Assembly: GCA_963969365.1 (NCBI GenBank)
Contig: OZ017757.1
Coordinates: 1,116,001-1,180,000 of the forward strand
Origin: Asterochloris sp. CNOR1
Lineage: Eukaryota; Chlorophyta; Trebouxiophyceae; Trebouxiales; Trebouxiaceae
Direction of reading: 5' to 3'
Length of the DNA: 64,000 nt
Below, in pieces: positions 81-64,000 of this stretch. The notes under the pieces are model-generated. The model searched no databases and had not been told where the DNA came from. It saw only the letters and a program-made list of their open reading frames with translations. A program made the translations under genes and the position numbers. Each line of letters starts with the position of its first letter. Within the stretch, counting starts at the first letter, position 1.

Positions 81-3000
81 GTGTGGCGGCCAGATGCAGA
101 TGACCAGGCAGAGGAGGATATGATGGACTATGACCCCACTGCCTATGACTGCCTCCACCGCTTTGCCCTGGAGTGGCCCTGCCTCAGGTGAGGCGCCTTG
201 CAGCACCTTGTTGCTCCCCATCAGGACGCTCTGCCAGGCTGAAGGACACGCAATGCACACTGCCTTCGTGCGCTGGATACTGCTTTTCTGCGCTGAATGT
301 GGTGTGCTTGCATGCCTCTGGGCCCTTGCAGGGCTGCCTTTGACGCCATTGATGCATCTGCTCAACAGCAGCAGGGGCTGCTTCCTTCTGGCTGCAGTCA
401 GGCATCAACACAGTGACTCTGGTCATCATGCTGCCTCCTCCTCCAGTAGCCTTGGCCACTTCCACTGACAGGGCCCTCTTTGCTGCTGCAGTCTAGACAT
501 TCTGCGCGACGAGCTGGGCGGGCCCCGCAATGACTTTCCCCACAGCCTTTACATGGTGGCTGGGACCCAGGCTGCCTCAGCCAAGCGCAACTACCTGGCC
601 CTTGTCAAGCTGTCAGACATCAAGCAGGGGCGCCACGGCGCAAAAGCTGGCGCAGCGGATGACTCTGACGATGATCTGCTGAGCGAGAGCGATGAGGAGG
701 TCGAGGATCCCCCGCAGATGCACCTGCGCATGCAGGTAACTATTACTGTTACTGACAGCAGCCAGCAGGATTTGTGCAGCTCAAATCCCCTCCCCACACG
801 TGCAACGGTAGGCGCTGGTTTGCACGCTGCATGCAAGAGCTACTGAGGGCAGCAGCACTGTCAGTACGGCTGGCTGCCTTGACTTGCCAGGCAGGTGCTG
901 ACCAGCCACCACTGTGCATGCAAGTGCCCTCCAAAGCCGCTGAGGGCAATAACGGTTTCAAGGCAGGAACACACTCTCAGACTGGACCTCTTTGGCATGT
1001 GCTGATGGTGCACCACTGCGCATGCAGGCCCTCCCCTACGCGGTCAACCGTGTGCGCAGCATGCCTCAGAGGCCGGGCGTGACGGCCCTGTGGGGGGAGG
1101 ATGGGCAAGTGCAGGTGAGCAGCATGCTGCAGCCTGGCTGCAGATTGCGTGCGCTCCGGGGCTGAGCGAGTCTAGGTCAGCCCTCTTAGGGGAGCGCAGC
1201 TGAAATGTTTGCTGCATCCCTCGCTCTGCGTCTCAGACATGTCATTGCCTGTGCCAAGGCTGCCTGCGCCACCTATCCTGCGCTGACTGCCAGGCTGTGT
1301 ACCTGTCTGACCGTTTTGCAGTGGCATCTGCTGCCAAGGAGCTCGAAAAATGTGCAGCAAAGCCATGCCCTGCAAAAATTGCCTGAATTCGTCTGAGGCC
1401 TTGCCCTCCTGCTACCTGCAGGTGTTTGACCTCACCTCCGCTGCTGAGGAACTCCAGAGCAGAGGCAGCAAGCCCAGCAAGAACCAGACACTGCAGCTGG
1501 CACCCCTGCAAGCCCACAGGCATGCCACAGAGGGGTATGCCCTCGACTGGTCCCCGCAGGCAGCGGGGCAGCTGGCCACTGGGGACTGCAGGCGGCATCT
1601 GCACGTGTGGAGCCCCACATCTGCTGGCAGCTGGGAGGTCAGCGCGCCCTACAAGGGGCACACGCAGTCGGTCGAGGACTTGCAGTGGAGCCCCACGGAG
1701 CCCAATGTGAGTTGCCTGCCTTGCCGGCAGAACCTGCCATCGTCTCAAAGCATGCCTTGTTCTTGATGCAGTGCTCAGGGGGCACGTGCACTCAATTGAG
1801 CAACTGCAGTGGACTTCCAGGAAGCCCAGCGTGAGTGGCTCGTCTGGCATCGGCACTCTGTCCTCAACAGGCTCTGCAGCGAGCGTTCATGCCTGCTGAC
1901 GGCTGGGAGGTCAGCAGAGCACATGCACTGTGGTGGTCATGCAGTGGTGCCCCACAGAACCCAGTGTGTTTTGCTCACAGTCTGGGTGGTAGAGCCTGGC
2001 ATTGGCTCTCAAAGCTCGCCCTGCATAGGGACCTCTAGGGGGGCACAAGAGGTCTGTTGGAGACATGCAGTGGTGTGCCACTGAGCCTGATGTGACTTGT
2101 GCGTCTGACCTGCAAGCTGTCAGGCAGCGCCTGCCACTGGCTCTCAAAGCTTGCCCTGCACAAGGAGCCCTGTCAGGCTGGCACGAGGGCATGTTTTGGC
2201 ATGACTTTTGCTGTTGCTGAAGGAGCCTGCAACTGACGCAAAACATGGTCAGACCAGCTGCTGCTCTCAGCAGGGCTGGTTGCCAAATACAAATGCATGT
2301 GTTGCACAGCAGGCGCTGGCCTGCTTCTGCCCACCTATCAGCAAGCCTGCCTGCATGCTCTGACCCAGCTATCGGCATCCTGCTAAGTGGACGTGCCCTG
2401 GTCTACAAGATGACACGGTTGTTGCCCTGAGTCTGCCTGCCCCATCTGCCCATAGTAGAGCCTTTGCTGCTATTCCTCACTATGCCTCGCCACGCACTGC
2501 CACCCCAAAACCCCCCCTCGCGTAAGCACAATTCACATCCTGTCTCGCTCAGGTGCTGGCAGCCTGTTGATTGGACGGGACAGTGCACATCTGAAAGCAC
2601 TGCCGACCTCAAGCTTTCCTGTGCCACTCACCTCAAACCTGCCCTGCGCAGGTGCTGGCCTCCTGTTCAGTGGATGGAACAGTGCGCATCTGGGACACAC
2701 GGGAGCGTGGGCGCAGCATGCTCAGCGTGGCAGCCTCAAAGACGGATGTAAACGTCATCTCCTGGTCCAGGCTGACAACTTACATCCTGGCCTCGGGGGA
2801 TGATGCTGGGGTCATGCGGGTGTGGGATTTGCGCAACCTGGCTGACGGCGCCCATGTGGCCAACTTTGCTTACCACAGGTGAGGAGCTCTGCCCATGAGC
2901 AAACACAGGCGAAGCAAGGTGCATCTCCGCCCTTGACTGGGGCAGGCACCAAGTTTGCCACTGGCACAGTGCCTTCATTGGTAAGTCACTGCATGGGAGC

Positions 3001-3740
3001 TTGCAGGCTGGATCTGGGGCAGGTGGCCGGCCTTTGCCAACTGCAGAAGAGGTCCCTGCTGCACAGGTTGGGAGATGCCGCTCATGTGGCCGTTCTTGCA
3101 TCCTCCTGGTGAGACCCGCTGTCAGACTTGTGTTTGGCAGAGCCTTGCACATCTGTGCAGCCTTTAGGGCACTCTGGTGTGCAGGTGATTGCTGTCCTGC
3201 TGAGCTCCCAAGTCCTCAAGCATTCTCGCTGGCAGGCAGCTGCACATTGCGCTGCACAGAAACCTGCGCCTGCAGGGCTGCCACTGCCTCTGCCTAGTGG
3301 CAAACCTACAAGCCCTTGTGTTGACGGACTCATCACTGCCCTGCTGCCTCTGCCCATCACGCATCTGACCCGGCCGCCGGCGCCAATCGCTCTGCTGGCC
3401 CTGCCACACACCACTGCCCTGCTGCCTCTGCAGGAGTGCCATTACCTCCATCGAGTGGGCCACCCACGAGAACAGCGTGCTGGCCACCACATCCAGCGAT
3501 GGGCAGTTGGCCATCTGGGATTTGGCAGTGGAAAGGGACCCTGAGGAGGAGGCAAACATGGCACCTGACAACAACGCTGCAGCACCAGACGACCTGCCCC
3601 CTCAGTTAATGTTTGTGCATTGCGGGCAGCAGGACATGAAGGAGGCTCACTGGCATCCCCAGATCCCTGGCATGATGGTCAGCACCGCTGCAGATGGTTT
3701 TAATGTTTTTAGGCCTGCTCCTGGGCCCCTCAATATCTGA
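81..3740 (+). CDS. GRWD1: GRWD1/Rrb1-like glutamate-rich WD40 protein, 5' partial
   Basis: WD40 propeller protein that in the known family chaperones ribosomal protein L3 and acts in 60S subunit assembly in the nucleolus. Exons by phase-consistent splicing: 81-187, 492-735, 1028-1114, 1422-1706, 2652-2878, 3434-3740 (stop TGA). About 418 residues are visible; the first exon(s) lie left of the window. The N-terminal part has the family's 'HRFALEWPCLS' segment, then an acidic run (SDDDLLSESDEEVED) that gives the family its name. WD repeats end in VRIWDT, MRVWDL and LAIWDL, and the C-terminus FNVFRPAPG is a weak last blade. It converges on TDP1. The intron between 1706 and 2652 is full of decayed exon copies (annotated separately). 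Family assignment is firm; exon edges are well supported. Confidence 0.93.
1660..2175 (+). repeat. Tandem decayed copies of an exon 3' end and its donor
   Basis: The end of the GRWD1 exon at 1660-1706 plus its following intron start recurs three more times at about 125-135 bp spacing. The landmark 'tgcagtgg' lies at 1680, 1805, 1940 and 2066, each followed by a variant of 'ccca..gagccca.tgtga'. The intron part repeats too: 'tctcaaagc' occurs near 1744, 2009 and 2140. Copies have lost the reading frame, so they are not used exons. They make up most of the first half of the intron. Confidence 0.85.
2548..2606 (+). repeat. Decayed copy of the next GRWD1 exon start
   Basis: The bases around 2550-2600 repeat the acceptor and first ~45 bases of the true exon that starts at 2652. 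Both read 'aggtgctggc' followed by 'cctgtt', then a 'gga.ggaacagtgc.catctg' motif about 25 bases on. The upstream copy quickly runs into stops, so it is best read as a dead exon duplicate inside the intron. Confidence 0.8.
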
Positions 3741-63800: not shown

Positions 63801-64000
63801 CTGTGCCCGCAACATACTGCTCCAGTCTTGCTGGCTGCTGCTCGGTGGGGAGCCCTTGGGCATGACATCACTGCCTTGCCATTGTGTCCGACAGACAGGG
63901 GTCCCTGCACTGCAGGCCGCTGCTCTGTGTGCGGGGAGGAGTCTTTTGGCACTGGCAGCGACCATGTGCGTGAGAAGGACGGCCTCTGGGCTGTGCTGGC
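57833..64000 (+). CDS. PGM: Phosphoglucomutase, probably plastid, 3' partial
   Basis: Interconverts glucose-1-phosphate and glucose-6-phosphate in starch and sugar metabolism. Phase-checked exons: 57833-58039, 58228-58340, 58776-58911, 59326-59398, 60261-60469, 61290-61477, 62485-62725, 63370-63487, 63915 to the window end. The first exon adds ~69 residues rich in R, S and T with few acids ('[20 protein letters not shown]'), a plausible chloroplast transit peptide. The alpha-D-phosphohexomutase motifs follow: '[10 protein letters not shown]', the phosphoserine loop '[18 protein letters not shown]', the metal loop 'SDGDGDRNM', and the substrate loop '[18 protein letters not shown]'. All key residues are present. 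The C-terminal phosphate-binding domain lies beyond the window. Most introns contain dead exon-edge copies. Confidence 0.96.
59560..59620 (+). repeat. Decayed copy of PGM exon end (59398)
   Basis: 'Cagcatctgcccttgtcagg' at about 59574 followed by 'cgaatacagctgtacac' mirrors the exon end 'gcaatgtccgccctcatcag' followed by 'gcgcaggaagctgtatgg' about 210 bp upstream. It lies inside the following intron and is not read. Confidence 0.75.
60550..60630 (+). repeat. Decayed copy of PGM exon end (60469)
   Basis: 'Gacatggccgagctgcccat' and 'gcaagcagggcaagcagcga' (about 60556-60610) match 'aaaatggccgacctgcctga' and 'gcaagctgggcaagcagaac' of the true exon at 60404-60455. The copy sits ~150 bp into the next intron. 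Confidence 0.82.
61020..61055 (+). repeat. Decayed copy of PGM exon start (61290)
   Basis: 'Caggaagaggtgattgacag' plus 'tctggagaag' at 61027 resembles the true exon start 'caggtggaggtgatcgactg' plus 'tgtggaggac' at 61287, about 260 bp further on. The acceptor AG is duplicated with it. Confidence 0.65.
62212..62278 (+). repeat. Decayed copy of PGM exon part (62519)
   Basis: 'Catcctgaccccaacctgat' then 'ctgtgccagggaacaagtgg' at 62226 matches the exon's 'caccctgaccccaacctgac' then 'ctatgcaaaggagctggtgg' at 62519. It is almost certainly a duplicate of this exon left in the upstream intron. Confidence 0.85.
63640..63880 (+). repeat. Two decayed copies of the next PGM exon
   Basis: The true exon 'gaggagtcttttggcactgg' (about 63936) followed by 'cagcgaccatgtgcgtgaga' is preceded by 'cacgagtcctttggcatagg' then 'gcagtggccacgcgc' (63656) and, more weakly, 'ggggagcccttgggcatgac' (63848). 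'Gctgctctgtgtgc' also occurs both at 63716 and 63919. The units make a short decayed array before the acceptor. Confidence 0.78.

Follow-up and report, generated by a model that had tools for sequence, protein, structure and literature searches.

Copies of exon edges in the introns of the green alga Asterochloris and their likely origin in small tandem duplications

Exon-edge copies in the window

The window, by which we mean the whole stretch of DNA analysed here, comprises 64,000 nucleotides of the green alga Asterochloris sp. CNOR1 (G000:C12:1116001-1180000) in a host assembly of 56.38 Mb in 21 contigs. Among its genes are GRWD1, an IQCH-like gene, a CBM20 gene and a phosphoglucomutase gene, and the introns of these four contain decayed copies of the edges of the adjoining exons. 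A first-pass annotation had noticed such copies and attributed them to an ongoing, genome-wide process that lengthens introns, or lets splice sites slide, by local duplication across junctions. In the following, we confirm that exon-edge copies in adjoining introns are real and extend beyond the window, and we describe why random small tandem duplications, filtered by selection, are in our view their likely explanation.

The analysis covers about 300 kb of one Asterochloris genome: the window, 230 kb on five further contigs and 6 kb elsewhere on the contig of the window. The added sequence consists of four 50-kb stretches, one on each of contigs 1-4, and of six 6-kb pieces near kinase genes (contigs 1, 2, 3 twice, 12 and 17). 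Eukaryotic relatives for comparison were sought in viral contigs and none was found, and the introns counted are those of this one genome. Exon boundaries were taken from our own self-trained gene finder, which was seeded with 13 kinase exons from a Pfam search and then iterated; a run with its first setting, in which the intron penalties were far too low, gave 1301-2477 mostly false introns and was discarded. The final models comprise 71 genes, 448 exons (median 140 bases) and 377 introns (median 353), with the splice consensus MAG/GTGAG at donors and CTGCAG/G at acceptors.

When compared with independent protein sequences, 25 of 30 junctions match, including those of six of the eight copy-bearing introns among those tested. 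For GRWD1, all five junctions match protein P0001 (404 amino acids, listed at 100% identity); its longest contig of 1494 nt is too short for an unspliced sequence. All 16 junctions of a prolyl oligopeptidase model likewise agree with its counterpart, jgi/Astpho2/9877, to which the predicted protein of 671 residues is listed as 100% identical over 100%, with three residue differences visible in the alignment. The five failures all fall in an SnRK1-type kinase model (4/9 junctions in agreement), where it differs from the reference or has segments absent there; its best match is jgi/Astpho2/1387 (88%), relative to which the model carries extra segments. Astpho2 is the JGI code for A. glomerata, and on the strength of these matches we regard the genome as that of the same Asterochloris species or a near one.

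At a score of at least 17, 19 of 132 exon edges in the window have a copy in the adjoining intron, with one to three copies per edge, as originally described, and offsets of 98-453 bp apart from one of 714 bp. Of the five gene models with copies, 9 and 10 probably form a single phosphoglucomutase gene, and model 6 fuses the first half of IQCH with the CBM20 gene; by our reading, there are four genes where at least five had been counted. The copies are listed below, with identities from our own alignments at the same score threshold.

1652-1706, plus strand: last bases of GRWD1 exon 1422-1706, original of the donor-edge copies (gene model; P0001 junctions)
1776-1828, plus: GRWD1 donor edge, copy 1 in intron 1707-2651; offset 124, 38/53 identical
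1919-1963, plus: GRWD1 donor edge, copy 2; offset 261, 36/45 identical
2040-2087, plus: GRWD1 donor edge, copy 3; offset 385, 36/48 identical
2553-2593, plus: copy of GRWD1 acceptor edge 2652-2692; offset 99, 34/41 identical, alignment reaching 19 bases into the intron
18472-18526, minus: exon end (donor edge) of the IQCH-like gene, original (gene model; PF24923 ATP-grasp_IQCH in the predicted protein)
18376-18425, minus: IQCH donor edge, copy; offset 98, 41/50 identical, alignment spanning the junction from -52 to +36
18255-18309, minus: IQCH donor edge, second copy; offset 217, 43/55
18020-18078, minus: IQCH donor edge, third copy; offset 453, 39/59
19472-19515, minus: copy of IQCH acceptor edge 19214-19265; 37/44
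15526-15562, minus: copy of acceptor edge 15416-15453; 29/37
21364-21388, minus: copy of donor edge 21719-21743; 22/25
21232-21260, minus: copy of acceptor edge 21018-21046; 23/29, at threshold
22218-22266, minus: copy of donor edge 22318-22364; offset 98, 38/46, in an array read by Tandem Repeats Finder (TRF) at period 102
22119-22167, minus: second copy of donor edge 22318-22364; offset 198, 37/47
24240-24282, minus: copy of donor edge 24406-24459; 38/43
24719-24771, minus: copy of acceptor edge 24618-24671; 41/50
28509-28543, minus: copy of CBM20 gene acceptor edge 28400-28433; 27/34 (PF00686)
29422-29476, minus: copy of CBM20 gene donor edge 29531-29586; 40/55
30125-30179, minus: copy of CBM20 gene donor edge 30414-30464; 38/51
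27129-27176, minus: weak distant copy of donor edge 27843-27890; offset 714, 36/46, host 'intron' probably intergenic
60562-60603, plus: copy of phosphoglucomutase donor edge 60410-60451; 31/42 (PF02878)
61032-61060, plus: copy of phosphoglucomutase acceptor edge 61293-61321; 23/29, at threshold
61793-61849, plus: copy of phosphoglucomutase donor edge 61421-61477; 39/57
62214-62249, plus: copy of phosphoglucomutase acceptor-side exon stretch 62509-62544; 30/36
63714-63730, plus: short 17-base copy of acceptor edge 63916-63932; 17/17, at threshold
9608-9789, no strand assigned: intron-intron pair 9608-9666 / 9731-9789, like the edge copies but without an exon; offset 123
45414-45590, minus: exon-internal tandem duplication, period 87 (29 codons), in frame; 90% identical

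Rates, location, decay and age in the 300-kb sample

For the edge tests, 342 of the 377 introns (100-2000 bp) were used, leaving out exons shorter than 60 bases and a coiled-coil gene. The terminal 60 exon bases match their own intron (score of at least 18) at 32 of 300 donor edges and 23 of 307 acceptor edges. Introns swapped between genes gave 0/1500 and 1/1535 matches, respectively, so the copies exceed chance and are local rather than dispersed, as had been proposed; reverse complements gave 1/300 and 1/307. Within exons, 60-mers taken 60-120 bases from the edge matched in 3/193 cases on the donor side and 3/198 on the acceptor side, and those taken 120-180 bases inside in 0/43 and 1/51. 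Equal rates with swapped exons or at exon centres had been named beforehand as the outcomes that would speak against the observation, and neither was found. The introns on the wrong side of the exon were matched by 1/256 donor edges (upstream intron) and 2/256 acceptor edges (downstream intron), and 11 of 219 60-mers from inside introns matched their own intron.

In total, 49 of 342 introns (about one in seven) and 23 of 57 genes have an exon-edge copy, which, within the sample, supports the suggestion that the phenomenon is widespread. The offsets (10-90% range) are 88-348 bp for donors and 91-284 bp for acceptors, close to the 85-270 bp first described. Copy-bearing introns are longer (median 585 vs 324 bp; Mann-Whitney p 5e-9), although long introns offer more room, so that this alone is no proof of growth.

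The edge copies belong to a larger population of local direct duplications. We located these with a diagonal scan. It replaced a self-BLAST, which seems to miss repeats with spacings below about 50 bp close to the self diagonal: BLAST showed almost none of these, the scan many. At a score of at least 19, the scan yields 226 direct and 10 inverted pairs at 12-500 bp, and 185 direct and five inverted pairs at 60-500 bp. In the window, with the coiled-coil stretches taken out, we count 35 direct and no inverted repeats (at least 30 bits, 60-500 bp apart), and the direct excess recurs in each of the four 50-kb stretches and in the six 6-kb stretches pooled. The density of pairs per bp of spacing peaks at 80-130 bp and drops to background near 500 bp. 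Window positions 42200-43950 and 49600-55100 (coiled-coil repeats) were dropped before counting, as were low-complexity repeats in the diagonal scan and the pair classes; pairs from one array were counted singly and hence are not independent.

With respect to the gene models (introns of 60-3000 bp, 374 of 377 used), 66 of 224 pairs join a junction-containing copy to an intron, where randomly shifted positions give a mean of 24.9 (standard deviation 5.3; none of 1000 shifts reaches 66). Intron-intron pairs (101; null 95.3) and exon-intron pairs (33; null 32.2) lie near the shifted expectation; intergenic pairs number 12 (null 24.9), exon-exon pairs 11 (null 19.8) and exon-intergenic pairs one. 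Not one of the 224 pairs joins a junction to an exon (null 11.4): each of the 66 junction-containing copies is paired with intron sequence, which implies that the outermost splice site stayed in use and leaves no support for the proposed splice-site sliding. In a BLAST list of 159 pairs, 54 are junction-intron and two junction-junction. Exons also act as a frame filter, in that all 28 within-exon pairs (10 exons, several amino-acid repeats) have offsets divisible by three, compared with 36 of 97 in noncoding DNA; in the coiled-coil stretches left out of the counts, 40/40 within-exon pairs are in frame as well.

On the donor side, pair coverage drops from 0.086 at the exon edge to 0.005 within the exon, 100-120 bases away, as would follow if randomly placed units of about 100 bp were subject to purging, and on the acceptor side from 0.087 to 0.013 at 80-100 bases. 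The alignments often cross the junction, for instance from -52 to +36 in the IQCH-like gene and from -68 to +37 and -77 to +25 elsewhere (26 best edges). The junction, which the first-pass annotation placed within the copies, is included in part of the cases. By 10-20 bases beyond it, mean similarity is close to background.

The copies decay nearly neutrally. Across 46 edges, identity by codon position is 0.807, 0.777 and 0.724, 78 of 94 gaps measure one or two bases, and C to T changes affect 0.318 of CpG sites vs 0.085 of other C. Nor do the copied splice sites show clear signs of being maintained: at a score of at least 17, the donor GT is kept in 15 of 20 copies, where the identity of the same alignments predicts 0.66, and the acceptor AG in 10 of 22 (0.65 predicted), so that acceptors fall, if anything, under expectation.

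CpG is strongly depleted in the 300-kb sample as a whole (observed/expected 0.37), as is TpA (0.35 in exons, 0.44 in introns). Together, the CpG depletion and the excess of CpG to TpG changes in decaying copies suggest CpG methylation.

The larger duplications look old. Among BLAST pairs with at least 40 aligned bases, at least 28 bits and 50-450 bp between the copies, none of the 102 noncoding or exon-touching pairs in the 300 kb reaches 90% identity, while 89 fall at 70-85%; the suggestion that the process is ongoing therefore did not hold up. One exon-exon pair, outside the 102, stands at 90.0%, and some shorter pairs do reach 90% or more, one of 26 bases at 96% being an example. The same sequence contains tandem repeats of short period (20-42 bp) at 90-100% identity. 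Given these repeats and an inverted duplication of 99% identity in the window, assembly collapse is not an obvious cause of the age gap. Repeat-induced hypermutation was considered as a cause of the missing young copies and dropped, since the mutation spectrum is CpG-like and otherwise ordinary.

A further set of features in the window and the sample stands apart from these duplications. The inverted duplication comprises part of the CBM20 gene (30916-32397 and 35861-36704 vs 38615-40935), and the inverted copy is contiguous where the original is split by about 3.46 kb. The insert (32398-35860) carries terminal inverted repeats that start ACGGACGAGG (66 aligned bases, 89%) and, apparently, a target duplication of six bases, ACTATT; in the inverted copy, the site is empty. 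On visual inspection, the open frames of the insert are unlike a transposase (no family search was made), and the insert has one further partial match, on contig 3. Within 1500 bp (score of at least 17), 10 of 34 inverted repeats in the sample are hairpin-like with loops under 60 bases, for instance at G000:C2:541550-541615 and G000:C4:547937-547995. The gene for a large coiled-coil protein lies at 49600-55100; it has long open frames in both directions and contains an array of about 11.5 copies of 117 bp (39 codons) at 53007-54353. There are no Rfam or tRNA matches in the window.

Random duplication, selection and the alternatives

We consider it likely that small tandem duplications at random sites, filtered by selection, account for the exon-edge copies. 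Their units would measure very roughly 50-400 bp, mostly near 80-130 bp. Within a coding exon, such a duplication would be lost unless it kept the frame, while within an intron it would be free. It would likewise be free astride a splice junction, where the outermost splice site would stay in use and the protein would be the same; the second exon edge, with its splice motif, would then land in the lengthened intron and decay neutrally. Held by selection, the exon-side original would keep edge copies recognizable for longer than intron-intron copies, which is why they look as if aimed at junctions. The birth step may have been the repair of staggered breaks with fill-in and joining of the ends, a route described for small tandem duplications in rice, Arabidopsis and mammalian cells.

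We simulated this process by placing random tandem duplications in the gene models, removing those that change the protein and letting the exon copy decay slowly and the rest neutrally with indels, with a similar detection score. Accepted events have a junction to intron ratio of 0.58-0.66. The ratio among detected pairs is 0.62-0.67 for ages T of 0.1-0.5 and 0.87-0.99 for age ranges up to T = 0.8-1.0, in agreement with the observed ratio of exon-touching (99) to intron-intron pairs (101) of 0.98. The similarity beyond the donor junction falls through 0.56, 0.35 and 0.32 in the simulation (old events), compared with 0.51, 0.34 and 0.32 in the sample.

These results bear on the possibility that a junction-directed process, for example one coupled to splicing or tied to a break-prone feature, copies exon edges together with their splice sites. 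It could account for junction-intron pairs at 2.6 times the shifted null, for edge match rates (0.107 and 0.075) about 1.5-2 times the rate inside introns (0.050), and for the loss of similarity shortly beyond the junction. The shifted null, however, ignores both exonic purging and one-sided decay, and a neutral simulation with both matches the ratio as well as the drop at the junction; moreover, intron-intron pairs are as frequent as exon-touching ones. Junction targeting is thus not needed and appears improbable, so that of the mechanism first proposed, intron lengthening by local duplication stands while its direction to junctions falls away. A reading of the sharp end of similarity as a sign of function or of junction-bounded copying was dropped on the same grounds, since one-sided decay yields a similar fall. 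Dispersed introner-like elements or transposons that came to lie next to exons by chance are refuted in this sample by the near-absence of matches in swapped introns, each set matching its own neighbour alone, and can practically be set aside.

Several observations weigh against random tandem duplication. Steady birth up to the present would, in simulation, leave about 20% of pairs at 90% identity or more, where we observe none. Intron-anchored repeats enter the exon less than simulated: their reach over the first and second ten bases is 0.48 and 0.37 for donors and 0.39 and 0.35 for acceptors, compared with 0.57-0.66 and 0.45-0.54 for simulated donors, and there may be some selection against junction-spanning duplications. 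Acceptor-side coverage climbs back to 0.065-0.14 at 120-200 bases into the exon (386-876 bases per bin), probably on account of a few long exons with protein repeats. The exon and indel rates of the simulation were chosen by us, the ratio it yields for the youngest age range is lower, and microhomology at the breakpoints is unreadable at such divergence.

Two further points of this kind each lend themselves to another explanation. Of the copies tested, just 8 of 24 at donors and 1 of 27 at acceptors have clearly homologous intron flanks (p<0.01), and 40 of 91 strong pairs, some at 82-96% identity, enclose a spacer without detectable homology, either because the decay was uneven or because the copies were never adjacent. 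The latter is what one would expect if most pairs arose by spaced templated copying, in which a polymerase or a break end copies 20-100 nearby bases in direct orientation before rejoining, and it is seen even in short near-identical pairs (26 bases, 96%, 38-base spacer). Yet templated insertion is expected in both orientations, and inverted pairs are rare at 60-500 bp. In addition, 51 of the 91 pairs are adjacent (21) or flank-homologous at p<0.05 (11 at p<0.01, 19 at p 0.01-0.05), and the 30 among the 70 spaced pairs compare with about seven by chance (two tests per pair). We therefore regard templated copying as unlikely for most pairs. Similarly, at a score of at least 18, the donor GT is kept in 15 of 19 copies, and simulation retains it in 43-59%, which together with the 15/20 at the lower score could hint at alternative or mutually exclusive exons or at maintained decoy splice sites. 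Whole exons are not duplicated, however, as the wrong-side introns show; the codon positions decay almost equally, most gaps are not multiples of three, and when judged by the identity of their alignments, donors are close to expectation and acceptors below it. A function of the intronic copies is accordingly very improbable.

The age gap may be read historically: an ancestral wave of 60-450 bp tandem duplications would have lengthened introns genome-wide until a heritable change in break repair stopped this class, while the 20-42 bp class continued. We offer this as a speculation, and an unlikely one; if true, the introns would be a datable record of a mutator phase. Exons of the FEN1/XPG family are present, and exons of the DNA polymerase A family occur at two genomic sites (contigs 7 and 16), which neither supports nor excludes a repair defect.

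Comparison with known systems

Small tandem duplications are known from several systems. In rice, they are the most frequent kind of insertion; they are enriched at 50-200 bp, their share falls past 125 bp, and they are ascribed to adjacent-nick repair, while structural variants are scarcer in exons than in introns (PMC7971508). In mouse and human cells, they form at breaks with protruding ends via fill-in and non-homologous end joining (PMC5730883, PMC8355091). The duplications described here resemble these cases in direct orientation, in sizes of tens to a few hundred bp, with the rice range much like our mode of 80-130 bp, and in their scarcity in exons. The Asterochloris tail reaches about 450 bp and is fuller beyond 200 bp than the rice figures (PMC7971508). 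Unlike the rice and mammalian cases, ours are mostly old remnants of 65-89% identity, in which the join, the microhomology and the enzyme are unreadable. The rice study cites Vaughn and Bennetzen (2014).

Other parallels concern introns themselves. In a single case, potato RdRp, a duplication over an intron-exon boundary has been described as the source of a new intron (PMC4974935), and near intron pairs in Drosophila point to novel introns that arise from tandem duplication within exons (PMC2891723). As in this form of intron gain (the Rogers model), the duplications described here carry splice signals and leave the peptide unchanged, but they enlarge introns already in place, and no new intron is observed. 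The model also predicts a new intron as long as the duplicated unit, and no offset in the window equals the length of its host intron. Intron sliding (PMC2891723) would likewise profit from duplicated junctions, which would give a nearby alternative site, but in this one genome no moved junction is seen and no junction copy has an exon as partner. Introner elements are a single family found in many introns. They too contribute to intronic DNA at numerous sites of a genome, whereas the Asterochloris copies match their own exon alone.

In A. glomerata, about 5% of the DNA is repetitive, and genes have nine introns each and a mean length of 4240 bp for a 1400-bp mRNA, as reported (PMC6652019). 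The filler of introns in repeat-poor genomes is seldom traceable; here the source of part of it is legible at single-base level, since the original survives in the adjacent exon. With a record in about 14% of introns, the size, age and fate of small tandem duplications become measurable in one genome. The data also suggest a rule, namely that introns are biased to lengthen, in that a duplication crossing a junction is free while the outer site is used. A literature search restricted to open-licence papers returned no genome-wide account of exon-edge copies in introns. The Asterochloris case is best compared with the small tandem duplications of rice and mammalian cells: it is a known class of mutation, preserved as a widespread fossil record and lengthening existing introns in an alga.

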